A stretch of 64,000 nt of DNA, taken from NCBI GenBank assembly GCA_040752815.1, contig JBFMGC010000006.1, forward strand, positions 1 through 64,000, written 5' to 3'. A model generated the notes under the pieces. That model was not told the DNA's origin. It saw nothing but the letters and a program-made list of their open reading frames with translations, and searched no databases. The DNA is from Candidatus Zixiibacteriota bacterium (lineage in GTDB: Bacteria > Zixibacteria > MSB-5A5 > GN15 > FEB-12). The position numbers were made by a program, and so were the translations under genes. This document shows positions 225 through 12,319 of this stretch, piece after piece (the stretch's first letter is position 1; each line of letters starts with the position of its first letter).

Positions 225-642
225 GTAACTCTCGCAGGGCAGCAATGGCGGGTCTAAAATGCCCGGGTCGCTCGCGGCGGCGAGCGACTGGCGATTCTGC
301 GACCCGTGGCGGGTTCCAAGCGGACCCGCCTTCAGCTCCATTCGCTCAAGCGGTCCCACCACAGCGAGCCGTGGGCTGCCCGCTACGACACGTGGCTGGT
401 GATCGTGCCCGTCCACCAGCAGCCGGCCTCGGGTCTCCTCCGCCTCAGGTGGGCAGGACCAGGCGCAGTGCTATCTGGCCGTACAAATATAGCTGTCAGC
501 CTCGTTGTCTCATCGCGTATGTCCCCGTAGCTAACATGGATCGGATCGGGCGACTATTCAGTGTTGATTTGGCGTGGCGCTGCGAACCGAAACGTGAACT
601 GTCGTTGAAATACATCCACCGATCGTCAGATTGGTCACCAGT
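225..642. other. Intergenic region, no gene seen
   Basis: About 420 bases between the glycine-rich gene and the secreted metallopeptidase. Short open frames exist on both strands but have arginine-rich, low-complexity translations and no ribosome-binding sites. No clear terminator or promoter could be picked out. Confidence 0.5.
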
Positions 643-3600
643 ATGCAAGTGAAGTCGGCCGGCATAATGATGATGGCGCTATGTGCGCTGGCGGCAACTG
701 CAGCGGCGCAGCCGGGGTTTAAGGTCTATCGCATCAAAGACACCACCGCGGTCTTTTCGACCTGGTACAGCCCGCTCGCCTTCCCACGAATCAATGATCA
801 ATACCAAGTTGTGCTCGAAGCATACTCGTTGGCTCCGCGAACCGGGGTCTGGTCGGCCGGTAGACTGACACAACCGGCCTTGCCGCCACCTCCGGACACG
901 TTCAAGGTGTGGAGGGATATCATTCCCTTCGGCATAAATGACCGGGGGCACATCGCCGGGTACATTTTCAGCAATTATCATGTGCACGGGTTCAGTTGGG
1001 ACGACGCGGTCTCGGAACTTCTCCCATTCGATAGCGCCCATTGGATTGCCTTCAACGGTCTGCTCATGTGCGAACGGGCAACCGCTTTCGATATCAACGA
1101 CGCCGGCGTCGTGTCCGGACACTCGGCCTGGTCGCGCCCCGATGACCTTGGCTTCATGCGCTATCACAGCCGGCCGGTCCTCTGGGTGAACGGCCTGATC
1201 GAGGTGGCCGGTACGCTGCCCGGCTATCCGCCCGATTCAGTTTGGTACCGCGATCTGCCGGTACGCATCAACAACAGCAATCAAATCTGCGGCACGGCGC
1301 AACTGCGGGTATCGCCGTATACCGGGCAGTATCGCGCGTTCTTTGGAGAGAACGGCGCCCTGCTCGAAATCCCTCTTTTTGCTGGGGGGTACACGTCTGT
1401 TGCTTACGACATCAGCGACTCCGGGCATGTGGTTGGGTACGAGGACTACAACGAGGGAACCACTCACATGAAGCACGCCTGGCGGTATTATGACGGCTCC
1501 AAGATCGACATCCACGGGACAGTTTTCGCCAACACCGCCTGGAGCGAAGCGTACGGTGTGAACGGCCACGGTGAAGTTGTGGGCGCGTGGGTAACAGGTG
1601 GCTCGTCGCAGGTCACGGCCCTCTATTACGACGGCGATACCACCTACAATCTGAATACCCTCGTCACCAATTTTCCCGGCGCAGTCGGTGGCCCCACGCT
1701 CAACGGAAATATCGTGGCGGCACTCAGTATCAGCGACAACGGCTCGATTGTCGCCGCCTATAGAAACGGTTTCTTTCTCTATCCCTGCCTGTTGATGCCG
1801 GACATCACCGGCGTGGTGGTGAACTCGGAGGGCGACGCGCCGGACTCGAATCCGAACGACGGCAAGTGCTGGAGCGGCGGCTACAATGTGATCGGCGAGG
1901 AGGAATGCACGCTGCGAGCGGCTCTTCAGCACGCGAACCAGGCGGCCAACCGAGACACTATCATCTTTCGTATCCCGGTGCCGGGGGTACCGTCGATCGG
2001 TGTGCAGTCGGAACTGCCGGAAATAACTACGCCGGTGACACTCGACGCCACCACGCAGCCGACCCTGCATCGGGTACGGCTCGATGGCGGCGGGTTGTCG
2101 GCCAAAGCCCTGACGGTGTCTGCCGACGACTGCGAAATCCGGGGGCTGGCGATCAACAATTTTGACGGCTACGGCATAAGTCTCTTGAATGCCGACAGCG
2201 CCGTTGTTCTGCAGAACACGATCGGTCCGGATGTATCAGGCCACCCGGGTGCGGGCAACTACGGCGGTATTGTCATCGAGAACAGCTCGCAGAACAGGAT
2301 TGGCGACGCCGATCCCGATCTCTCCAACGTGATCGCCTACAACCTGCGCGAAGGGGTGCTGGTTGTCTCGGGCGAGGGGAACACGATCAGGCGGAATATC
2401 ATGTACGGCAATGGGGGGCTCGGAATCGACCTGCTTCCGCCGGGTGTGACCCCCAACGATTCGCTCGATCCTGACATTGGACCGAACAAGCTCGTGAATT
2501 TTCCGATCCTGGACTCGGTCCTCAATAAGGCTGGCCTGACGTACTTCTATGGTCACATAGTTGCGGAGCCGACCACCGGCTACGTGATCGAGTTCTATAT
2601 CAATGACAGCTGTGATCAGTCGGGATACGGCGAGGGGGAGCTCTCGCTCTGGACCACCCAGGTGACCACCAATGCGGATGGAGTGGCGGAATTCGAGTCG
2701 GCCACATCCCTGGTCTCGCTCATCGGCAAGTTCTTTACGGCCACCGCGACCGACTGGGACGACAACACGTCGGAGTTCTCCCCCTGTTGGCCGGCCAAGC
2801 GGCTGATCGTGATCGACGCTTTCGATGCCCCAATTGCCAACACCTGGTTCAGTGTCTATAAAGTGGCGAACGACCGGCCCAGCTTCACGGAAGTGCTTCT
2901 CGACTCCGTCATGTCTGACGCCGGCGGCATTATCGATCTAAGCGAGCTCCTCGCCGAGGGTGGTATCGCGACAGGGGATTCGATCAAAGTGTCGAAGAAA
3001 CTGGCGAGCCTCCCCAAAGCGCGTAATACGCTCGGGGCACTTACCAATGCGTTCACGGTGTACCTGGATAACGCAGTTTTCGACCAGGCCACGTACGCCA
3101 TGTCTTACGATGAACTGACCGATGAGCCGCTGCAGATCGTCAAGCTGAATCACTCTACGATTGCGGTGAACCTGATCGTGGGCATTCAGTGGGAGGCCGA
3201 CGAGGCCTATATCAGTAATCTGTCCGCCGCTTTTCGGAACGCGTCGAATTACCTCTACGACGTGACCGACGGCCAGCTCCGGCTTGACACGGTCTGGATA
3301 TACAACAACTCGCTTCTGTGGCGTCTGGCCGACGTCCGGATTTACGCGACCAATGCGCTGGAGCCGGAGGCTACAGCGGACGGCATCTACAGAACTGACG
3401 CCAACGCGCGGGTGCTGTTCTGCCGTCGCTGGTTCGGGAGCGTGGATCTGAGCGTCGATTCGACTGTGATCGAATGGCCGATGCGGCCCGACGGCGAAAC
3501 GAACTTCCGAACTATCGCCCATGAATTGGGACATTATGTGCTCGGATTCCTGGATGAGTACCGCGTATCCACCCGTCGCTGTGCGCCGATGAGCTGGTAC

Positions 3601-5226
3601 GGTTTCATGGATTCCCAGTATTCCCACCACGGCGCAGCGAGCAGCGAAATGTCCTGGTCGCTGCAGTACATTGATGTGGCTTGCCGCAATAACGAGCAAT
3701 GGCGCGCTTACGGCCGCTCCTGCTGGGATCACTTTGAGTTCGTTTGGCAGAAGGAATACGGCGGAGTCCATTCGCCGATTATTAAGCCCGCCGAACAGCC
3801 GGGCCTGGCCGCCCGCTCGTTCTTCTTCGGCCCCAACGACAATGCGACCAGCCTCGATTACGATGTCGGGCGGCTGATCGAGTTCAATGTCGTTTCCACG
3901 CCGCGCGTGGGCCGTGATAGGCTCGTCACCGTGCGCGATCCGCGCAGCGGACAGCCGGTCCCTCGGGCCGCGGTCCATCACATGAAAATGCCGTCGCAAA
4001 CAATGATTGCGCAGGGTGGGACGTCGAGTAACGGCGGGATCTATGTACTAGGTGTGCGCACAGGCGACAGCATACTGGCCTCATCGGCACTTCGTATCGA
4101 AGTACCCGGTGCGCCGGCCGTGGCGACAGTTCAGTCGCAGGTCGAGTGGTTGAGCGGCGGAATCAGGTTAGGCGATTCCATGGGTGACAGCATCGTTGTG
4201 AACCTCACTGCGGTTCAGGGAAACCTGCCCATGCTTTTCACGCTGATGCCGAGAGGGGACTCCATCGATCTGCGGCTTGACTATATATTCGATTTCCCTG
4301 GGTTACCGTCGTACTTTCTTGCGTTGGACAGCGCTACTGTCTGGTCCGGTCAAATGAATGGAGATGGGTTTTTTCATTATCTCGCGACTTTGCCGAACGA
4401 TACGAATATATCTGAAGGGGAGCTCCTCATTAGCGCTCGGGACCTCGCCTCCCAGACGTTTTTTGTGCCTGTTCAGTTCCGTATCGAGCGACAACCGGGA
4501 GGTGAGGGCGCTCGCACGATGTTCAGCCTGGACATGACAACCCGCCTCGAACTTGACTCAGCAGTCAGCGACCGCACAGTCATTCTCACATCATGCGCGT
4601 ATCCGCCGTCGCAGAACGGCGTGGTGAGCGGTGCACTGCAGGTGAGCGGCGTCCAGGCGGTGGCTGTTTCAGGTGATTCCACTTTCAGTGAGCCACTTGG
4701 TTTCTCGATCACGTACAATCCGGCCGGTGTCGAAAGTGCGCCGCCGCCTCAGAACGAAGAGCATCGGATTCGCGTTTATCAGTGGAACATAAGCCAAGGC
4801 AGGTGGGAGTTGGTCGGCGGCTGGGTAGATACCTCTGCCAATGTTGTTTACACGAGCATATCCAAGGGCAGTCACTCTTACTATGCGGCGTTTACAAGCG
4901 ATCAGTTGACATCGATCGATGAGGGCCCGGGCGGCGTGCTGTTGCCCGACCACATCGGTCTGGCGCAGAACTATCCGAATCCGTTCAACAACGGGACCGT
5001 GATTGAATTCAGCTTGGCGCGAGCCGAGCGCGTGCGCCTCGACGTGCTCAACCTGCTGGGGCAAATCGTGCGTGTCCTCGTTGACGAGCCGAGGGCGGCC
5101 GGAGTACACCGCGTGGAGTGGGATGGGCTGAATCAATCTGGCGACCGTGTGGCGACCGGTATCTACCTGTACCGGCTCCGCGCCGGCGAACATCTGGAAA
5201 CGAAGAAGATGATGCTGTTGAAGTAG
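643..5226 (+). CDS. Large secreted multidomain protein with metallopeptidase motif and FlgD-like sorting domain
   Basis: A 1,527-residue protein starting at ATG 643; a TTG 12 bases upstream is also in frame, but the ATG directly precedes a typical signal peptide (residues 1-23, ending in AAAQ). Residues ~25-390 look like the HAF-type 'extracellular repeat' (DIN/GINDRGHIAGY-like units). Near residue 420 is a CTLRAALQHAN motif that commonly precedes right-handed beta-helix domains, and residues ~430-650 have beta-helix-like NTI/IRNN repeats. A zinc-peptidase motif HELGH (His960-His964), followed by LDEY, lies in a ~250-residue catalytic-like region. Ig-like segments follow. The last ~85 residues (from LAQNYPNPFN, ~1443) match the FlgD-Ig/type IX-style sorting domain common in FCB-group bacteria. 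Likely exported and surface-attached or released; the substrate is unknown. It converges on the electron-transfer operon. Confidence 0.85.
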   Translation: MQVKSAGIMMMALCALAATAAAQPGFKVYRIKDTTAVFSTWYSPLAFPRINDQYQVVLEAYSLAPRTGVWSAGRLTQPALPPPPDTFKVWRDIIPFGINDRGHIAGYIFSNYHVHGFSWDDAVSELLPFDSAHWIAFNGLLMCERATAFDINDAGVVSGHSAWSRPDDLGFMRYHSRPVLWVNGLIEVAGTLPGYPPDSVWYRDLPVRINNSNQICGTAQLRVSPYTGQYRAFFGENGALLEIPLFAGGYTSVAYDISDSGHVVGYEDYNEGTTHMKHAWRYYDGSKIDIHGTVFANTAWSEAYGVNGHGEVVGAWVTGGSSQVTALYYDGDTTYNLNTLVTNFPGAVGGPTLNGNIVAALSISDNGSIVAAYRNGFFLYPCLLMPDITGVVVNSEGDAPDSNPNDGKCWSGGYNVIGEEECTLRAALQHANQAANRDTIIFRIPVPGVPSIGVQSELPEITTPVTLDATTQPTLHRVRLDGGGLSAKALTVSADDCEIRGLAINNFDGYGISLLNADSAVVLQNTIGPDVSGHPGAGNYGGIVIENSSQNRIGDADPDLSNVIAYNLREGVLVVSGEGNTIRRNIMYGNGGLGIDLLPPGVTPNDSLDPDIGPNKLVNFPILDSVLNKAGLTYFYGHIVAEPTTGYVIEFYINDSCDQSGYGEGELSLWTTQVTTNADGVAEFESATSLVSLIGKFFTATATDWDDNTSEFSPCWPAKRLIVIDAFDAPIANTWFSVYKVANDRPSFTEVLLDSVMSDAGGIIDLSELLAEGGIATGDSIKVSKKLASLPKARNTLGALTNAFTVYLDNAVFDQATYAMSYDELTDEPLQIVKLNHSTIAVNLIVGIQWEADEAYISNLSAAFRNASNYLYDVTDGQLRLDTVWIYNNSLLWRLADVRIYATNALEPEATADGIYRTDANARVLFCRRWFGSVDLSVDSTVIEWPMRPDGETNFRTIAHELGHYVLGFLDEYRVSTRRCAPMSWYGFMDSQYSHHGAASSEMSWSLQYIDVACRNNEQWRAYGRSCWDHFEFVWQKEYGGVHSPIIKPAEQPGLAARSFFFGPNDNATSLDYDVGRLIEFNVVSTPRVGRDRLVTVRDPRSGQPVPRAAVHHMKMPSQTMIAQGGTSSNGGIYVLGVRTGDSILASSALRIEVPGAPAVATVQSQVEWLSGGIRLGDSMGDSIVVNLTAVQGNLPMLFTLMPRGDSIDLRLDYIFDFPGLPSYFLALDSATVWSGQMNGDGFFHYLATLPNDTNISEGELLISARDLASQTFFVPVQFRIERQPGGEGARTMFSLDMTTRLELDSAVSDRTVILTSCAYPPSQNGVVSGALQVSGVQAVAVSGDSTFSEPLGFSITYNPAGVESAPPPQNEEHRIRVYQWNISQGRWELVGGWVDTSANVVYTSISKGSHSYYAAFTSDQLTSIDEGPGGVLLPDHIGLAQNYPNPFNNGTVIEFSLARAERVRLDVLNLLGQIVRVLVDEPRAAGVHRVEWDGLNQSGDRVATGIYLYRLRAGEHLETKKMMLLK

Positions 5227-5251: not shown

Positions 5252-6586
5252 TCAGGTTTTCAGGGCAAAGTCGAATTCACGGAAGCTGCGCGTGTCGCCG
5301 CCGAAGGCGATTCCCATTTTCTTGAGCATGTCGAATGGTGGCAGGCCGCCGATCTGCACGATGACAAAGTCATTCGGTAGCTCGACCTGACCTGGCGGTG
5401 TTCCCAGCAGCACTGATTCAGGCCGTATCTCGACCACCTGCGACTCGAACAGCGCCTTCAGTTTGCGGGCGGCGATCATGCGCGTGACGGCTTCTTCGTT
5501 TTTCTTCTTCACTCTGAAAAAACCGCTTTTGCGGTAGGATATGGTCACATCATTACCGGGCTGCCTGGCCAGGCCGACCGCAGCCTCGACTGCGCTGTCG
5601 CCCCCGCCGACCACCAGCATTCTCTTGCCCTGATACGACTGCGCGTCCATTAGCTGATAGGTTACCTTGGCCAGTTCCTCGCCGGGGACCTCGAGTTTGC
5701 GCGGCGTGCCGCGGCGCCCCATCGCCAGCACCACGTATCGGGCCAGATACGAATTCGATACGGTGCGCACGTCGAACGCACTCCCATTCCACGTGACTGA
5801 CTCGACACATTCACCGGCTCGCACGTTGAGTCGGAACTGCTCGGTGATCGCCTGCCAGATGTCCAAAAGCAGTTCTTTGGAGTACTCCTCTTTGGTCAGT
5901 CGGCCGTAGAGCGGAATATCGACCGGCTGAGTCATCACCAGCTTCTGGCGCGGGTAGTGCAGGATAGTGCCGCCGACATCACGGGCATCGAGCAGCATGT
6001 ACTTGAGCCGGTGCTGGGTTGCGGCCAGTCCCGCGGTGAGTCCGGCCGGACCGGCGCCGACAATGACTATGTCGTACAAGTCGTCATGCGACGGTCCGTG
6101 CAGGCGTCCGGCGATTTCGTCGACCACCATCTTGCCCTGAGCGACCGCATGGCGAATAAGCGATAGGCCGCCCAATTCGCCGGCGATGAATATGCCCGGC
6201 ACGCCGGTTTCATTGCAGGAGCTCAGGATCGGGATATCGGGGCGGGAGGTGACATCGCCCAGGCCCACCTTCATCGCTCCCACCGGGCAGGCGGTCTCAC
6301 AGTAGCCGTGGCCGACACACCGCTCCCAGTTGATGACCTCGGCCACACCCCAGACCACGCCGAGGACGTCGCCCTCCGGGCAGGCCGCCACACACGACCC
6401 GCAGCCGATACAAACCGATCGGTCGATCATGGGATACTGTGACCGGGGCCGGTCGATCCCCAGGGCCCGCGCCTCTTTCTTTCTTTCGGCAGTCGTGTGC
6501 TGCTGGCGGCGAAAGCGCCGGACATAGGGCACGAGGATAATCAAACCGAGTAGAATGACGCCAAGCCAAATGAGAAACTGCTGCAT
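5252..6586 (-). CDS. Membrane-anchored Fe-S/FAD pyridine-nucleotide oxidoreductase
   Basis: 444 residues. Residues 4-21 form one N-terminal membrane segment, followed by a basic stretch. A ferredoxin-like domain carries CxxCxxCxxxCP (Cys59, 62, 65, 69) and a second cluster motif in which the second ligand position is histidine (Cys90, His93, Cys96, Cys100). A thioredoxin-reductase-like flavoprotein follows, with FAD-binding GAGPAG at 177-182 and a second nucleotide-binding GGGDSA near 330. The redox-active CxxC of true thioredoxin reductase is not evident, so an electron-transfer NAD(P)H oxidoreductase is more likely. It is the last gene of the five-gene minus-strand operon, 37 bases after the beta-barrel gene. 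Inferred role: passing electrons between NAD(P)H and the cytochrome b/c chain. Confidence 0.85.
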   Translation of the reverse strand: MQQFLIWLGVILLGLIILVPYVRRFRRQQHTTAERKKEARALGIDRPRSQYPMIDRSVCIGCGSCVAACPEGDVLGVVWGVAEVINWERCVGHGYCETACPVGAMKVGLGDVTSRPDIPILSSCNETGVPGIFIAGELGGLSLIRHAVAQGKMVVDEIAGRLHGPSHDDLYDIVIVGAGPAGLTAGLAATQHRLKYMLLDARDVGGTILHYPRQKLVMTQPVDIPLYGRLTKEEYSKELLLDIWQAITEQFRLNVRAGECVESVTWNGSAFDVRTVSNSYLARYVVLAMGRRGTPRKLEVPGEELAKVTYQLMDAQSYQGKRMLVVGGGDSAVEAAVGLARQPGNDVTISYRKSGFFRVKKKNEEAVTRMIAARKLKALFESQVVEIRPESVLLGTPPGQVELPNDFVIVQIGGLPPFDMLKKMGIAFGGDTRSFREFDFALKT

Positions 6587-6623
6587 ATCGCTTCTACCGT
6601 TGAGCCGTAATCGAGTTCAGCCC

Positions 6624-8246
6624 TCAGAACCGATAGCCGAGCTCGGTCTGAACACGAGTGCCGTCGATATCGTCGCCGCTGTCGAATTCCGCCGAACCGC
6701 CCAAGTACAGCCGCCGCGACAAATCGGCCTGCGCGCCGATCTCAAACCAGTTGCTTCTACGGTACGAGTCCGACGATTCCGCCCGGTAGCGATAACCACC
6801 GTAGCCGAGCGACAGTTGTAACCTGCGAGAAACCGAACGAGTCACGCGGGTGGAGTAGTTGTCGCCGCGGTCAAACGGCCCCTGAAAGGCTGCGTAGTGG
6901 ACCGAGATAGTCGAGCCGAAGCCGAGTAGTCCGGCCCGGCTCAGATAGAGGGAATAGCTGTTGGTCTGGTCCGGATCGCCCGACCGTTTGCGCAGGCCGT
7001 AGCCGATCGACGCTCGCACCTGGTATGGCAGCGCCACATCGACCTGGGTGCGTACACCCTGGCGAAGGTGGTCGTCAAAGAGGGAGTCGACCACCGTTCT
7101 GGTTTCATAGGTGCGATAATTGGTGCGATTGTCGTAGCTGACTACAAATCGAACTGAATTGTACAGGCGGTAGTTGATTCCGGCGTAGAGGCTGGACAGG
7201 CTGAGGCTTTTGCCGGCGGCGTCTCTGCGCCAGCGACGGTTTATGTCGACTTCGGCAGTATGATAGATACTCCACCGGCTGCCGGAACTAATTCGACCCT
7301 GTAAGGCGAATAGCTCGCGGCTCACTGTGCCGGCGTGATATTCTCCGACCGCGGCGATACTCTGTTCCAGAATTAGACCTCCGCCCGTAGGGCTGATCAC
7401 GCTGAGATAGACGCCGGCCCGGTTGACCGAGACACGGTCATTGGCATACGCCCAGTGAGGCTCCGAGCCGCCGAACAGACCGACACGCAGATTCTCAGTT
7501 GCCCGGGTTTCGAGCAGTAATCCGTCGAGGTAGCCGACACTGGACACTCGCCGCGGCAGAATGCGGCCGGCGCCGAAATTCAGCCGAGCCAGGGGAGCAT
7601 CATAGCTCAGCGAAAACTCCCATATGCGATTCTCCCATGCCTGACGAGATACCGCAGATGAGTATGCTCGCTGACGTTGATCATAACGCCCCCGGGTGCG
7701 CAGGCTGAAAGTAATATCCCGGTCGAACAGGCGGCGGACCTTGAGGTTGAGTCGAGCGGTGGTCTGGGAGAAACCGAGATTGGTGCTGCTCTGATCGGCC
7801 CAGTGATTGAAAAGCAACGAAACCCCGCCGGTTATTGTCGGAGCCTGGCGAGGGGAAAAGCTTCTCGGAGCCACCGGCTGTGGAATTGCGGTTGTATCCC
7901 GTTCGGCCTCGGCCAGCGTTGTATCGACGGCTGATGGAGCGGTATCGGCGGAGGGCTTGGAGACCAGCACAGCTTTGTCTCCGACTGCCGGCGTGCAGTT
8001 GTCGGAAAGTTTCGCGCACGATGCCGAATGATCCGCGACAAACACGATCTCGAGTTCGGTGCGGCAGTTGCCGGCATCGACGGTAACCAGCCTGTCACCC
8101 ACCACTAATCCATCGGCCCGCCCGCCGCCGAGATAGACATTCTCGGCCGACAGGTATTTGATCTCAAATGTCGTGGCACCAGCTACCGGTGCACACAGAC
8201 CGAGCAACACCGCCCCACCGATGATGAGTATCGTACCGTTCCTCAT
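6624..8246 (-). CDS. Outer-membrane beta-barrel protein of the cytochrome operon
   Basis: 540 residues starting at ATG 8246, whose A is shared with the TGA of the preceding cytochrome gene (TGATG), so translation is probably coupled. Residues 1-23 are a signal peptide (cleavage near VAGA|TTF). A ~100-residue soluble N-terminal part has two cysteines (near NCRTE and NCTPA). From ~residue 130 to the end there are alternating hydrophobic beta-strands with Tyr, Arg and Gly-rich turns, and the protein ends in GYRF, a terminal Phe typical of BAM-inserted barrels. No family name is recognised. It lies between two multihaem cytochromes and a flavoprotein, so a porin sheath for a trans-outer-membrane cytochrome, analogous to MtrB or OmbB, is plausible but unproven. 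Confidence 0.8.
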   Translation of the reverse strand: MRNGTILIIGGAVLLGLCAPVAGATTFEIKYLSAENVYLGGGRADGLVVGDRLVTVDAGNCRTELEIVFVADHSASCAKLSDNCTPAVGDKAVLVSKPSADTAPSAVDTTLAEAERDTTAIPQPVAPRSFSPRQAPTITGGVSLLFNHWADQSSTNLGFSQTTARLNLKVRRLFDRDITFSLRTRGRYDQRQRAYSSAVSRQAWENRIWEFSLSYDAPLARLNFGAGRILPRRVSSVGYLDGLLLETRATENLRVGLFGGSEPHWAYANDRVSVNRAGVYLSVISPTGGGLILEQSIAAVGEYHAGTVSRELFALQGRISSGSRWSIYHTAEVDINRRWRRDAAGKSLSLSSLYAGINYRLYNSVRFVVSYDNRTNYRTYETRTVVDSLFDDHLRQGVRTQVDVALPYQVRASIGYGLRKRSGDPDQTNSYSLYLSRAGLLGFGSTISVHYAAFQGPFDRGDNYSTRVTRSVSRRLQLSLGYGGYRYRAESSDSYRRSNWFEIGAQADLSRRLYLGGSAEFDSGDDIDGTRVQTELGYRF

Positions 8247-9703
8247 CAATGTTTCCCCTGTGGATGGCAGTTGTAGCAGGCACTGCTTAGATACTGATAA
8301 TCGTTGACCTCCGAGTGCTTGGGGTCGGTTTCCGACTGCAGGTGACATCCGGTGCACTCAAACACTGCGAAGTTTGCCGGCTGGACGTGGCAATCGGAGC
8401 AGACGTCCCATTTCCCGGCGTGGGCGCCGGTGTAAATGGGAAAATACAGCGCGTCGTGATCCCAGTTGACCGTGGTCCAGTTGGTTGTGCTGTGGCAGGG
8501 CGTGCAGTCGGTGGGGAAATTGGCCGCGGCGTGGTTCGGATTCGTGGTGGCGTCGTATTCGGTCTGGTGGCAGGCAAAGCAGGCGGTAGGAGTGCCGGCA
8601 TACCCGGTAGCGTGGCACGATCCACAGGCGGCCGTCATATGCGCGCCGGTAAGCGGGAATGGCGTGGCGTTATGGTCAAATGTAGCCGGAAGCCACGCCA
8701 TAGTGGTATGACAGGTCGCACAATCCTGACTGAATCCCGCAAGCGCGTGATTAGGATTTGTCGTAGCATCGTATTCGGTCCGGTGGCAGGAATAACAGTC
8801 GCCCGGCGTGCCGGCGTATGTGGTTGCATGGCACGAGACACAGGCGATGGTCTGGTGCCTTCCGGTGAGCGGAAAGCCGGTGGCGTTGTGATCGTACCGC
8901 GCCGGTTCCCAGCCGGCGGTTGAATGACAAACCGCGCACTGCGGAGTGAAACCGCTCTCGACATGGTTCGGGTCGGTCGTAGCTGCAAAGTCGGCGCTGT
9001 GGCAATCGTAACAATTGGTCGGCGTACCCGCAAAAGTCGTGGCATGGCAGGACTTGCACTCGATTTGCTTGTGGGCGCCGGTCAAAGCGAACCCGGACGG
9101 ATGCGTGTAAGTGACATCATTCCAGGTTCCCGATGCCGCGTGGTGGCACTGCTCGCAGCGCATGGTGAACCCGGCCAATTGGTGATTCGGCTCGGTCGCG
9201 GCGGCAAACGCCTCGGCGTGGCAACCCTCGCAGTCGACCGTCGCGCCGGCATACTCCTGGCGGTCATGCCCCCGGTGACAGGCCTCGCAGTCGGCTACCG
9301 CATGTACCCCCGTAAGCGCGAACCCTTTCTGAGCGTGCAGCTCCAGCACGTTCTTGCGGCTTTGCCAGTCACGCGGTGTGTGGCAGCTCCGGCAATTGGG
9401 TCCGAGTTGCCCCTGATGATGGTCGGTGTGGCAATCCTGGCAATCTACTCCGACATGACTGAACACCATATCTTTGTGACAACCGATACATTGCGCCGAG
9501 GCGTGTGCGCCGGTCAGGTGGAAACCGGTTTCATCGTGGTCAAACGCCAGCGTGTCGCGCAGTTCGGTCCAGGATTCCGACGTATGGCAGCTCTGGCAAT
9601 CCCACTTGATCTGCCCGTGGGGGTTTTTCGTGGATGTCTGGCTGAGGATTACTCCTACAAAGCTCGAGAGGAGCAACATGAGGATAAGGGGGGCTTTACT
9701 CAT
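8246..9703 (-). CDS. 19-haem periplasmic or outer-membrane cytochrome c
   Basis: 485 residues. The ATG at 9703 overlaps the previous gene's TGA in an ATGA; longer upstream extensions lack signal-peptide character. The signal peptide is residues ~1-21 (cleavage near VILSQ). I count 19 CxxCH haem-attachment motifs. The middle is built from ~72-residue modules, each with three CxxCH, a DPNH/NPNH segment, a W-containing loop and an LTGAH or LTGRH element; three adjacent copies are very similar and at least one earlier copy is divergent. The C-terminus has three further haems. It belongs to the cytochrome c3-like multihaem group. As second cytochrome in the operon, just before the beta-barrel, it is the natural candidate for a periplasm-spanning or barrel-embedded wire. 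Confidence 0.92.
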   Translation of the reverse strand: MSKAPLILMLLLSSFVGVILSQTSTKNPHGQIKWDCQSCHTSESWTELRDTLAFDHDETGFHLTGAHASAQCIGCHKDMVFSHVGVDCQDCHTDHHQGQLGPNCRSCHTPRDWQSRKNVLELHAQKGFALTGVHAVADCEACHRGHDRQEYAGATVDCEGCHAEAFAAATEPNHQLAGFTMRCEQCHHAASGTWNDVTYTHPSGFALTGAHKQIECKSCHATTFAGTPTNCYDCHSADFAATTDPNHVESGFTPQCAVCHSTAGWEPARYDHNATGFPLTGRHQTIACVSCHATTYAGTPGDCYSCHRTEYDATTNPNHALAGFSQDCATCHTTMAWLPATFDHNATPFPLTGAHMTAACGSCHATGYAGTPTACFACHQTEYDATTNPNHAAANFPTDCTPCHSTTNWTTVNWDHDALYFPIYTGAHAGKWDVCSDCHVQPANFAVFECTGCHLQSETDPKHSEVNDYQYLSSACYNCHPQGKH

Positions 9704-11409
9704 GACTTCTTCTCGCTTTCCAGGGAAAGGTTCGCTCCATGGCAGGAGACACACGCCGTATCGAGCGGCTTGTATGCCACGAACCGCTCGCCGTCGACCA
9801 TGGCGGGTACATGACATCGGCCACAGGCAACGTGCCTATGAGCTCCGTCGAGCGCAAAGCGCGAGCCTCGGTTGTGATCGAACTTCTCGGCCTTCCAGTT
9901 TCGGGAGGTATGGCAGCCGGAGCAATCGGTCAGGTGGGTCAGGGACGCGGCGAATTGGCTTCGATGTACATCGCGGTGGCAGTCCTGACACTGCTTTGAC
10001 GCACCCACAAAGGTCAGATGCGTTTCCCCACGCGCCGGCGTCCCCGTGCTGTGGCACATGATGCAGGCGACCGCGGCGTGTTTTCCGTCAAGCGCAAACC
10101 GGGTTTGACTATGATCAAAACTGACCAGTGCCCAGTATTCGACGCCATGGCAGGTTTCGCAACCGCCGGCGGCTACGTACTTATTGACCTCGCCACGGTG
10201 GGGATCGCGATGACAATCCAAGCATCTGGTAGACCTGAACTTGAAGTGATAAACAAGCGCTTTTTGTTCGCCGTCCCGGCTCGTATGACAGGCCAGGCAG
10301 GGCACCGCGCGATGCGCGCCACGGAGCGGATACTGAGTGCTTTCATGCTGTGACATCAGAAATGTCGCCGGACTGTAACCCGCGACCGTGTGGCATTCCT
10401 CGCAGGCGCCTTTGGCCGGGCGGGAGGCAAACTCTCCCCGATGGAAGTCAGAGTGGCAATCGAGACAGGCTCCGAACTTAAGCTCGCGAGACTTTTTCTC
10501 CGGTGCATGACACTTGTCGCAGGTGACGGAAGCATGCCGCCCCAGAAGGGGAAACCGGGTGCGGCTGTGATCGAATTTCGCGCGATCAGTCACATGCCAG
10601 CCGTCGGGGTTGTGGCAGTTACGGCAATTACTGCCCAGCTTGCCCTTGTGAACGTCAAAGTGGCAATCGGTACAGAGATCGTGGGCGATCGGTCTAAGAT
10701 GCATGTACCGGCCGTCGTCTTCGGGGCGACTGTCCACCTGCACGAGGTGACACTTGTCACAGGCGACCTCGAGATGTTTCCCCAGCAGCGCATACCCGGC
10801 CAGGGAGTGATCGAACCCGGATGCCGGCTTCCAGGCGGCGGTGGTGTGGCAGTTTGCGCAGTCAGTCGATACCTGGCCGCGGTGTTCATCGAAGTGGCAG
10901 CTTTTGCAGGCCTTATCAAGACCGAGATAAGTTCGGCTCAGCGTTATCTTGTCGCGCGCGAGAGCTGACCGGTCAGGAATGTACGTCTCCCGGTGGCAGG
11001 CGCGGCACTCAAGCGAGGCGTGCTTGCCGTCAAGGGCATACCCGGTGTGGGCGTGATTGAAACCTTCATGACCATTTTTCCAACATACCAGATCGAAGTC
11101 GCGCCCCTGGTGCTCGACATGACACAACTGGCATTCACGATAGTTCTGACTGCCGTGAAGGCCGGTGCGGGCGTTCAGGCGGTCGCGAATAAGCGAGTGG
11201 CATTCGAGACATTTGTTGGCAATTAAGTGCGCATCCGTGCCGTGACATCGATTGCAGTTCTGCACTCCCTCCAGGAAGGCATGGGACTGGTGTAAATCCC
11301 CCGGTGACAGTTGCGCCCGGGTAGTCTGCGGCAGTGCGAGTACCATCAGCACTGCTATTGCACTCACTGTACGGAAGCACATGTGATTATGACTAACTGA
11401 TCCAGCCAT
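9700..11409 (-). CDS. 20-haem cytochrome c
   Basis: 569 residues from ATG 11409. An in-frame ATG at 11382 would give a shorter signal peptide (MCFRTVSAIAVL...TTRAQ) and avoid the 17-base overlap with the cytochrome b-like gene; neither start has a strong Shine-Dalgarno site. I count 20 CxxCH motifs spread along the protein, often followed by DxHRG, with repeating units containing FDHS, LxGKH and CDKCH. It resembles large cytochrome c3 family (doxx-type) proteins. It lies directly after the membrane cytochrome b-like gene and overlaps the next cytochrome by four bases. Likely periplasmic, receiving electrons from the cytochrome b-like protein. Confidence 0.92.
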   Translation of the reverse strand: MAGSVSHNHMCFRTVSAIAVLMVLALPQTTRAQLSPGDLHQSHAFLEGVQNCNRCHGTDAHLIANKCLECHSLIRDRLNARTGLHGSQNYRECQLCHVEHQGRDFDLVCWKNGHEGFNHAHTGYALDGKHASLECRACHRETYIPDRSALARDKITLSRTYLGLDKACKSCHFDEHRGQVSTDCANCHTTAAWKPASGFDHSLAGYALLGKHLEVACDKCHLVQVDSRPEDDGRYMHLRPIAHDLCTDCHFDVHKGKLGSNCRNCHNPDGWHVTDRAKFDHSRTRFPLLGRHASVTCDKCHAPEKKSRELKFGACLDCHSDFHRGEFASRPAKGACEECHTVAGYSPATFLMSQHESTQYPLRGAHRAVPCLACHTSRDGEQKALVYHFKFRSTRCLDCHRDPHRGEVNKYVAAGGCETCHGVEYWALVSFDHSQTRFALDGKHAAVACIMCHSTGTPARGETHLTFVGASKQCQDCHRDVHRSQFAASLTHLTDCSGCHTSRNWKAEKFDHNRGSRFALDGAHRHVACGRCHVPAMVDGERFVAYKPLDTACVSCHGANLSLESEKKS

Positions 11410-12319
11410 ACCCGGTCCAAATGGCGATACCGATATGAATCGCCATGATGAAATACATGATAATGGCGAACGGTTTGTGGATCACGTGCCAGTAGTGAAA
11501 CAGTCGCTGCACCTGTCCCAACAGGTGAATGCGCCGTCGAAGCAGGGCGCGCGTGAACGACGTTTCGAATAGATCGCGAAACTGATCGCGTGGCAGCCAG
11601 ACGATCTTTAACAGTTGACGTCGCAGTTTGCTCTTAACCACAGGGCGTATCAGGTCATCGATCATGAGACTGAGAATCGCCGCGAAGGTAGCGTTGCCCC
11701 GTGGTATGAGCCGCTTTTCGAACAATGCGTCAACCTGCCCCAGGGTGATGTCGTCGAGCTTGAAGCGCGCTTTGAGGTTGCCGGCGGTATCGGCGCTGGT
11801 TTGTTCCATTTCCTGCAGAGTCAGTTCCTTGCCGGCAATGTTGCGCGGTATCTGTAGATAGAGATAACGTCCGAAGAACCCGCTGGCCGCCACGGCCACC
11901 ATCGACCAGAAACTGACAGCCACCAGTCCTTGTACTTTCAACGAGGTGTGCAGGACGATAAAAAGCGGCCCTATAATGCCCAGATAGATATGGAAGTCGA
12001 GCAGCGGGCGCAGGGGGAGCGAGCGTCCCAGCAGGCGGGTGCGTTTCCGCAGCGAGTAGACCAGCATCATGACCATCATGACCGATCCGGCGATTCCGTA
12101 GGCGAGACCGCGCGATCCGGCGGGACGGAGCCCGCGATAATCCGGGTGGTGAGGGCGCTCGGTGTACGGTGTCATGTAATAGTCAAAACCCTCGACAAAG
12201 AACCAGACCAGGATGGCGAACGAGAGCAAATACACGATCCAGAGCAGTCGTCGCCTGCCGTCACGAGCAGAGTCCTGCGCCACAGTCTCCTGGGTTGAGA
12301 TCATGTCCGACGAGATCAC
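11393..12319 (-). CDS. Cytochrome b-like integral membrane protein
   Basis: 308 residues and first gene of the operon. Hydrophobic segments lie at ~27-45, ~73-92, ~105-130, ~132-155 and ~280-305. Histidines sit in pairs inside or next to membrane segments (FHIYLGIIGPLFIVLH; FHYWHVIHKP...AIHIG), a pattern typical of haem b ligation in cytochrome b561 or ferric-reductase-like proteins. A ~110-residue soluble loop separates the two halves. There are two possible starts, ATG 12319 and the next Met five codons on. Inferred role: inner-membrane step that passes electrons from the quinone pool, or the linked flavoprotein, to the periplasmic cytochromes. Confidence 0.8.
   Translation of the reverse strand: MISSDMISTQETVAQDSARDGRRRLLWIVYLLSFAILVWFFVEGFDYYMTPYTERPHHPDYRGLRPAGSRGLAYGIAGSVMMVMMLVYSLRKRTRLLGRSLPLRPLLDFHIYLGIIGPLFIVLHTSLKVQGLVAVSFWSMVAVAASGFFGRYLYLQIPRNIAGKELTLQEMEQTSADTAGNLKARFKLDDITLGQVDALFEKRLIPRGNATFAAILSLMIDDLIRPVVKSKLRRQLLKIVWLPRDQFRDLFETSFTRALLRRRIHLLGQVQRLFHYWHVIHKPFAIIMYFIMAIHIGIAIWTGYGWIS

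Follow-up and report, generated by a model that had tools for sequence, protein, structure and literature searches.

The window analysed here comprises 64,000 nucleotides of contig JBFMGC010000006.1 from a Candidatus Zixiibacteriota bacterium (GCA_040752815.1). Mechanical calling of open reading frames places five co-directional genes on its minus strand, spanning positions 5252-12319. In operon order, these encode a cytochrome b-like inner-membrane protein with five transmembrane helices (IMP; 11393..12319, minus strand, 308 aa from a GTG, with an ATG at 12304 as the alternative and likely start), a 20-haem c-type cytochrome (c20; 9700..11409, minus strand, 569 aa, 20 CxxCH, alternative start at ATG 11382), a 19-haem c-type cytochrome (cN; 8246..9703, minus strand, 485 aa), an outer-membrane beta-barrel protein with a terminal Phe (6624..8246, minus strand, 540 aa from ATG 8246, ending in ...GYRF) and an Fe-S/FAD/NAD(P)-binding oxidoreductase (fad; 5252..6586, minus strand, 444 aa). 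The junctions are exact, with overlaps of 17, 4 and 1 bases followed by a 37-base gap. The initial annotation, which had described a five-gene minus-strand operon with 20 and 19 haems and these same junctions, was thus borne out in every detail that can be checked.

Domain assignments agree with this layout. Signal peptides, read by eye, were recognised in c20, cN (from ATG 9703) and the barrel protein; Pfam searches identified Cytochrome_C7/CIII domains in both cytochromes and two Fer4 domains plus Pyr_redox_2/3 in fad. Both cytochromes are free of stray CxxC motifs beside their 20 and 19 CxxCH, a pattern that cannot be chance. Convergent to the operon, the plus strand at 631-5226 of the window encodes a 1531-aa secreted protein with DUF3466 and beta-helix/NosD matches and a C-terminal sorting-type domain (FlgD_ig; Por_Secre_tail below threshold).

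Alignment of IMP homologues (A1) revealed three invariant elements, H110-x13-H124 on TM3, S146-G-x-x-G150 on TM4 and H281-x13-H295 on TM5, within the five helices given by a transmembrane scan. The loop between TM2 and TM3 carries six K/R and no D/E; by the positive-inside rule, the 126-residue loop between TM4 and TM5 is probably cytoplasmic. Assignment of IMP to the ferric reductase/NOX family was rejected, as its Ferric_reduct match (PF01794) is sub-threshold, at 15.6 bits against a gathering score of 28, and the HX13H layout alone is held in common.

In c20, all 20 CxxCH motifs are invariant across 36 sequences, whose rows had been preselected for 20 motifs. In the same alignment exactly 20 other histidines are conserved at 97-100%, while every remaining histidine reaches at most 25%; the protein therefore reads as a carrier of 20 bis-His haems. 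A complement of 20 haems recurs in 51 of 67 c20 matches. At about 26.8 aa per haem in c20 and 24.4 in cN, both proteins are densely packed, and c20 would presumably form a wire spanning the periplasm. Its AlphaFold model (pLDDT 78.6, pTM 0.42) gave no fold match and is left out of geometric arguments.

The 19-haem cytochrome follows a different plan. Its CxxCH spacing can be written as lss(lsm)5, corresponding to N = 1 + 3 x 6, and its C-terminal part (8249..9109, minus strand, aa 199-485) consists of four repeats of about 72 aa, each holding three CxxCH and three further histidines (four in the last repeat). Of 66 homologues, 38 follow the spacing lss(lsm)n exactly and almost all the rest approximate it; the haem number ranges from 10 to 73 and equals 3n+1 in 42 of 51, these being related sequences. 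By its sequence pattern, the architecture is thus one haem plus n 72-residue three-haem repeats. Variation in haem number among homologous large cytochromes has been noted earlier (PMC7399161). The largest examples are a 73-CxxCH repeat cytochrome (L078:11232-16715) and a 67-CxxCH one (L080:6407-11557). At the DNA level, the 73-haem gene still repeats in tandem with a 216-base (72-codon) unit at about 70% matches, whereas no such repeat is detectable in the window's 19-haem gene, which suggests that the protein repeats in the window are old.

An AlphaFold2 model of the barrel protein, built from 36 sequences (pLDDT 85.5, pTM 0.67), comprises a small N-terminal beta-domain (7959..8171, minus strand, aa 26-96), which probably faces the periplasm, a disordered linker and 22 beta strands (6630..7838, minus strand, aa 137-539). 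A barrel with too few strands, which the initial annotation had named as an outcome that would refute a conduit, is not what the model gives. A Foldseek comparison against the PDB returned generic porins and PapC/FimD pilus ushers at TM scores of 0.56 or less, and the 50 best fold matches listed did not include MtrB. Searches of Pfam and NCBIfam yielded no match above cut-off, OMP_b-brl appearing only sub-threshold. Sequence searches of the PDB with single operon proteins produced no matches, profile searches returned only generic multihaem and thioredoxin-reductase-like entries, and PDB searches found no close solved structure for the barrel, IMP or the full wire.

The N-terminus of the flavoprotein consists of one transmembrane segment followed by basic residues, and then a dicluster ferredoxin segment (6287..6412, minus strand, aa 59-100; alignment A4, 31 sequences) with the motifs C59xxC62xxC65xxxC69 and C90xxH93xxC96xxxC100. 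H93, at the second-Cys position of the second motif (window 6287-6342, aa 82-100), is invariant in the 31 homologues, and this conserved C-x2-H-x2-C-x3-C arrangement hints at histidine as a ligand of that Fe-S cluster. Many homologues from other gene orders also lack C62 of the first motif. The FAD/NAD(P) domain is nearest to YpdA/Bdr and thioredoxin reductases (PDB 7a7b), with its C-terminal FAD segment (GIFIAGEL) sitting in front of the domain. With this segment moved to the end, the protein scored 178.3 bits against YpdA instead of 168.9, and the thioredoxin reductase match grew from profile positions 1-207 to 1-293 of 300, which supports a circular permutation. Identity as a YpdA bacillithiol disulfide reductase (TIGR04018) was rejected at 169.5 bits against a cut-off of 339.9. 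Unlike YpdA and the thioredoxin reductases, fad lacks a CxxC redox pair, has a permuted FAD segment and carries the dicluster ferredoxin fused in front. Judging by the fold, its substrate would be NAD(P)-linked; the 'NAD(P)H-type dehydrogenase' of the initial annotation accordingly stands as a description of fold (Pyr_redox_2/3 plus two Fer4), not of demonstrated activity.

To establish how widely the gene set is maintained, we surveyed related genomes with two independent entry points, the Zixibacteria set being found by the barrel and the multi-phylum loci by IMP patterns. Barrel homologues occur in 25 of 98 relatives. Across 95 relatives, all 18 genomes with a full-length IMP are barrel-positive, compared with 5 of the 77 without IMP (Fisher p = 3e-15, relatedness uncorrected). 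The set is patchy (23 of 95 relatives), as would suit an accessory function more than a core one. Three classes of gene order were observed among barrel-positive relatives: IMP-c20-cN-barrel-fad, fad-IMP-c20-cN-barrel, and cN-barrel only.

A genome scan with the IMP alignment matched 310 relatives, 80 of which were examined at locus level. Most of these loci come from MAGs; they belong to Zixibacteria, Calditrichota, KSB1, Acidobacteriota, Gemmatimonadota, Krumholzibacteriia, Latescibacterota, Eisenbacteria, Ignavibacteria, Bacteroidota, Kryptonia and others, and the five-gene set extends over about ten bacterial phyla. It is also complete in a cultured organism, Emticicia oligotrophica DSM 17448, on plasmid pEMTOL02 beside a CcsA cytochrome c biogenesis gene. 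Loci with enough downstream DNA almost always contain IMP, c20, barrel and fad together. The position of fad varies (after the barrel, before IMP, or between IMP and c20), and the gene is kept in 35 of 38 complete loci. With duplicates removed, a same-strand multihaem gene precedes the barrel in all 61 resolvable cases, and IMP is followed by a multihaem gene, or by fad and then one, in all 78; departures from this fall at contig ends, at N runs or in split ORFs. The side-by-side recurrence of the genes in many related genomes answers the question of conservation that the initial annotation had raised: the five genes are a conserved module. Barrels apart from cytochromes, which it had regarded as evidence against a conduit, appeared at contig ends or N runs only.

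Rearranged loci allow partners to be assigned. At three Acidobacteriota loci (L093, L108, L111), the genes are split into divergent units, IMP with a 20-23-haem cytochrome (with or without fad) against the repeat cytochrome with the barrel. Four Zixibacteria loci (L039, L040, L041, L049) contain only a repeat cytochrome (27-48 haems) and the barrel, with no IMP, 20-haem wire or flavoprotein nearby. Together, these arrangements point to an inner-membrane module (IMP and the 20-haem wire) and an outer-membrane module (repeat cytochrome and barrel), in which cN would be the partner of the barrel.

Further IMP relatives lie on plasmids of Bradyrhizobium (L070), Variovorax (L071) and Methylophaga (L072), each with a 7-haem cytochrome; in the latter two, IMP is also accompanied by an FNR-type NAD/2Fe-2S flavoprotein unrelated to fad. 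These plasmid modules are situated near metal-handling or cytochrome maturation genes. Elsewhere in the source genome (G000:C1 78505-84909; L165:6506-12910), a second multihaem cluster adjoins a haem-copper oxidase operon. It encodes an 11-CxxCH protein and a 19-CxxCH protein of 945 aa, each with a cytochrome b561-like domain (below the Pfam cut-off in the latter), followed by a NapC-like 6-CxxCH protein; no barrel gene was recognised in this cluster, which possibly represents another electron-transfer chain.

The closest published anatomy is that of PCC3, described from Proteobacteria as a porin with an extracellular multihaem cytochrome (median 34 haems) and a periplasmic one (median 21) (He et al. 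2017, PMC5566968). Its IMP has about 300 aa and five transmembrane helices, with HX13H on TM3 and TM5 and SGXXG on TM4, and quinone coupling was proposed for an IMP of this kind (PMC5566968). In Sideroxydans lithotrophicus ES-1, Slit_1446-1449 encode IMP, periplasmic cytochrome, extracellular cytochrome and porin in order (PMC12016527). Periplasm-spanning and capacitor roles have been proposed for PCC3, and its expression has been studied (PMC10734462, PMC12442390, PMC8788666). Shared gene order, haem numbers and IMP signature indicate that the window set fits PCC3 by anatomy. In the open-licence literature, we found no description of this set in Zixibacteria, Calditrichota, Ignavibacteria or Emticicia.

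We consider it probable, on balance, that the operon specifies a single electron conduit spanning the entire Gram-negative envelope, PCC3-like but with its own cytoplasmic electron-entry enzyme; the complete candidate trans-envelope conduit of the initial annotation is in this sense well supported. With NAD(P)H as the presumed donor, electrons would enter the membrane-anchored flavoprotein at its FAD, cross its pair of Fe-S clusters and move on to two b haems in IMP, held by a cytoplasmic-side pair (H110/H281) and a periplasmic-side pair (H124/H295). From there they could enter the 20-haem bis-His periplasmic wire and then the 19-haem repeat cytochrome, which may be plugged into or emerge from the 22-strand barrel and so reach the outside. 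The NAD(P)H donor, the outward direction, the occupant of the barrel, the external substrate and the independence from quinones are elements that we infer.

The serious rival to outward flow is the reverse direction, in which extracellular donors (Fe(II), Mn(II), minerals or a partner cell) would feed the b haems of IMP by way of the barrel and the haem wires, and the flavoprotein would reduce NAD(P)+ or another acceptor in the cytoplasm. Two haem-copper oxidases in the source genome are in keeping with such uptake, as is the aerobic lifestyle of Emticicia. PCC3 is found in Fe(II) oxidisers and has been modelled as an uptake system (PMC5566968), and Mtr-type conduits are able to run both ways (PMC10734462). 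However, electrons supplied by Fe(II) lie at too positive a potential to reduce NAD(P)+ unless energy is put in, and no coupling device is apparent in the operon; moreover, Fe(II) did not induce PCC3 in ES-1, where the genes were down-regulated. We judge inward flow unlikely.

Equally doubtful, in our estimate, is a reading in which IMP exchanges electrons with quinones and the flavoprotein stands off the main path, acting perhaps as a regulator or maturation enzyme linked to ferredoxin or NAD(P)H. Retention of fad in nearly all complete loci despite its moving position, and its electron-transfer type of fold with two Fe-S clusters, speak against a peripheral role, even though the two HX13H pairs of IMP are like those of quinol-active cytochrome b and proteobacterial PCC3 is reported without a flavoprotein. 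The pairing of IMP relatives with a different NAD-linked flavoprotein on plasmids likewise makes NAD(P)H on the cytoplasmic side a more plausible donor than quinol, and together with the retention of fad it argues for a flavoprotein as the electron donor. Far less probable is that the cytochromes are mainly an electron store (capacitor) or envelope redox defence beside an ordinary porin: the very dense packing of their haems (one per 24-27 aa or so) and the capacitor role suggested for PCC3 would suit it, but the barrel is never away from cytochromes save where assemblies break off, and barrel and repeat cytochrome persist as a pair in some genomes.

Should the conduit with its own entry enzyme be correct, PCC3-like conduits, rather than being a proteobacterial oddity, would occur widely as envelope systems coupled to an NAD(P)H entry enzyme. 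Many uncultured lineages would have a plausible means of respiring, or of feeding on, solid minerals or partner cells while bypassing the quinone pool. A more specific proposal, which we advance tentatively, is a quinone-independent conduit class in which cytoplasmic NAD(P)H is wired directly via the permuted flavoprotein with its His-ligated Fe-S cluster, IMP, c20 and the barrel to an external 3n+1 'haem ruler' of up to 73 haems; if true, such a class would have a wide distribution among uncultured FCB-group bacteria and Acidobacteriota. Under the 3n+1 rule, the repeat cytochromes would provide a ready-made set of molecular wires in graded lengths. With the full set on pEMTOL02 of a cultured host, PCC3-type function becomes open to experiment.

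Among known systems, MtrCAB, MtoAB and PioAB likewise combine a porin with multihaem bis-His wires across the outer membrane, but MtrA has 10 haems and MtrB has 26 strands and is open by about 30 A on its periplasmic side (PMC7198977), against 20 and 19 haems and 22 modelled strands here. The decahaem MtrA/DmsE family was rejected for the 20-haem cytochrome (TIGR03508 sub-threshold at 46 bits against a cut-off of 192), as was a 26-strand MtrB-family barrel, given the modelled strand number and the lack of any family match above cut-off. MtrCAB compares as an analogue in function rather than as the nearest relative. OmbB-OmaB-OmcB of Geobacter also comprises a porin and two multihaem cytochromes; compared by haem number it was set aside, with 8 and 12 haems against 20 and 19, and no inner-membrane b protein or flavoprotein is described for its cluster. 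The L071 and L072 plasmid modules share a homologous IMP beside a cytoplasmic NAD-type flavoprotein and a multihaem cytochrome, yet they are without barrel and large repeat cytochrome, and their flavoprotein belongs to another family.

PCC3 shows the most extensive likeness. The adjacent IMP, periplasmic cytochrome, large cytochrome and porin occur in the window in the order of Slit_1446-1449, which is kept in relatives, and the window IMP carries the PCC3/PCC4 signature of PMC5566968 according to the A1 invariants and the transmembrane scan; PCC4 membership was rejected on thresholds or haem numbers. The periplasmic cytochrome has 21-24 haems in PCC3 and 20 here, the second cytochrome is large and variable in both, and the window proteins fall within the PCC3 range of about 22-39 aa per haem. 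Other features compare as follows: PCC3 porins vary, with up to 42 strands predicted by another method, and 22 are modelled here; the second cytochrome is extracellular in PCC3, and cN carries a signal peptide; PCC3 was described from Proteobacteria, whereas window-type sets occur in Zixibacteria, Calditrichota, Acidobacteriota, Bacteroidota and others. The 'new arrangement' suggested by the initial annotation is only partly right, since the order of IMP, roughly 20-haem cytochrome, large variable cytochrome and porin is that of PCC3 (PMC5566968), while the membrane-anchored 2xFe-S/FAD/NAD(P) protein has not been reported for it. Matched to PCC3 by published description rather than sequence alignment, the operon would best be classed as a PCC3-like conduit in a new, flavoprotein-containing variant.
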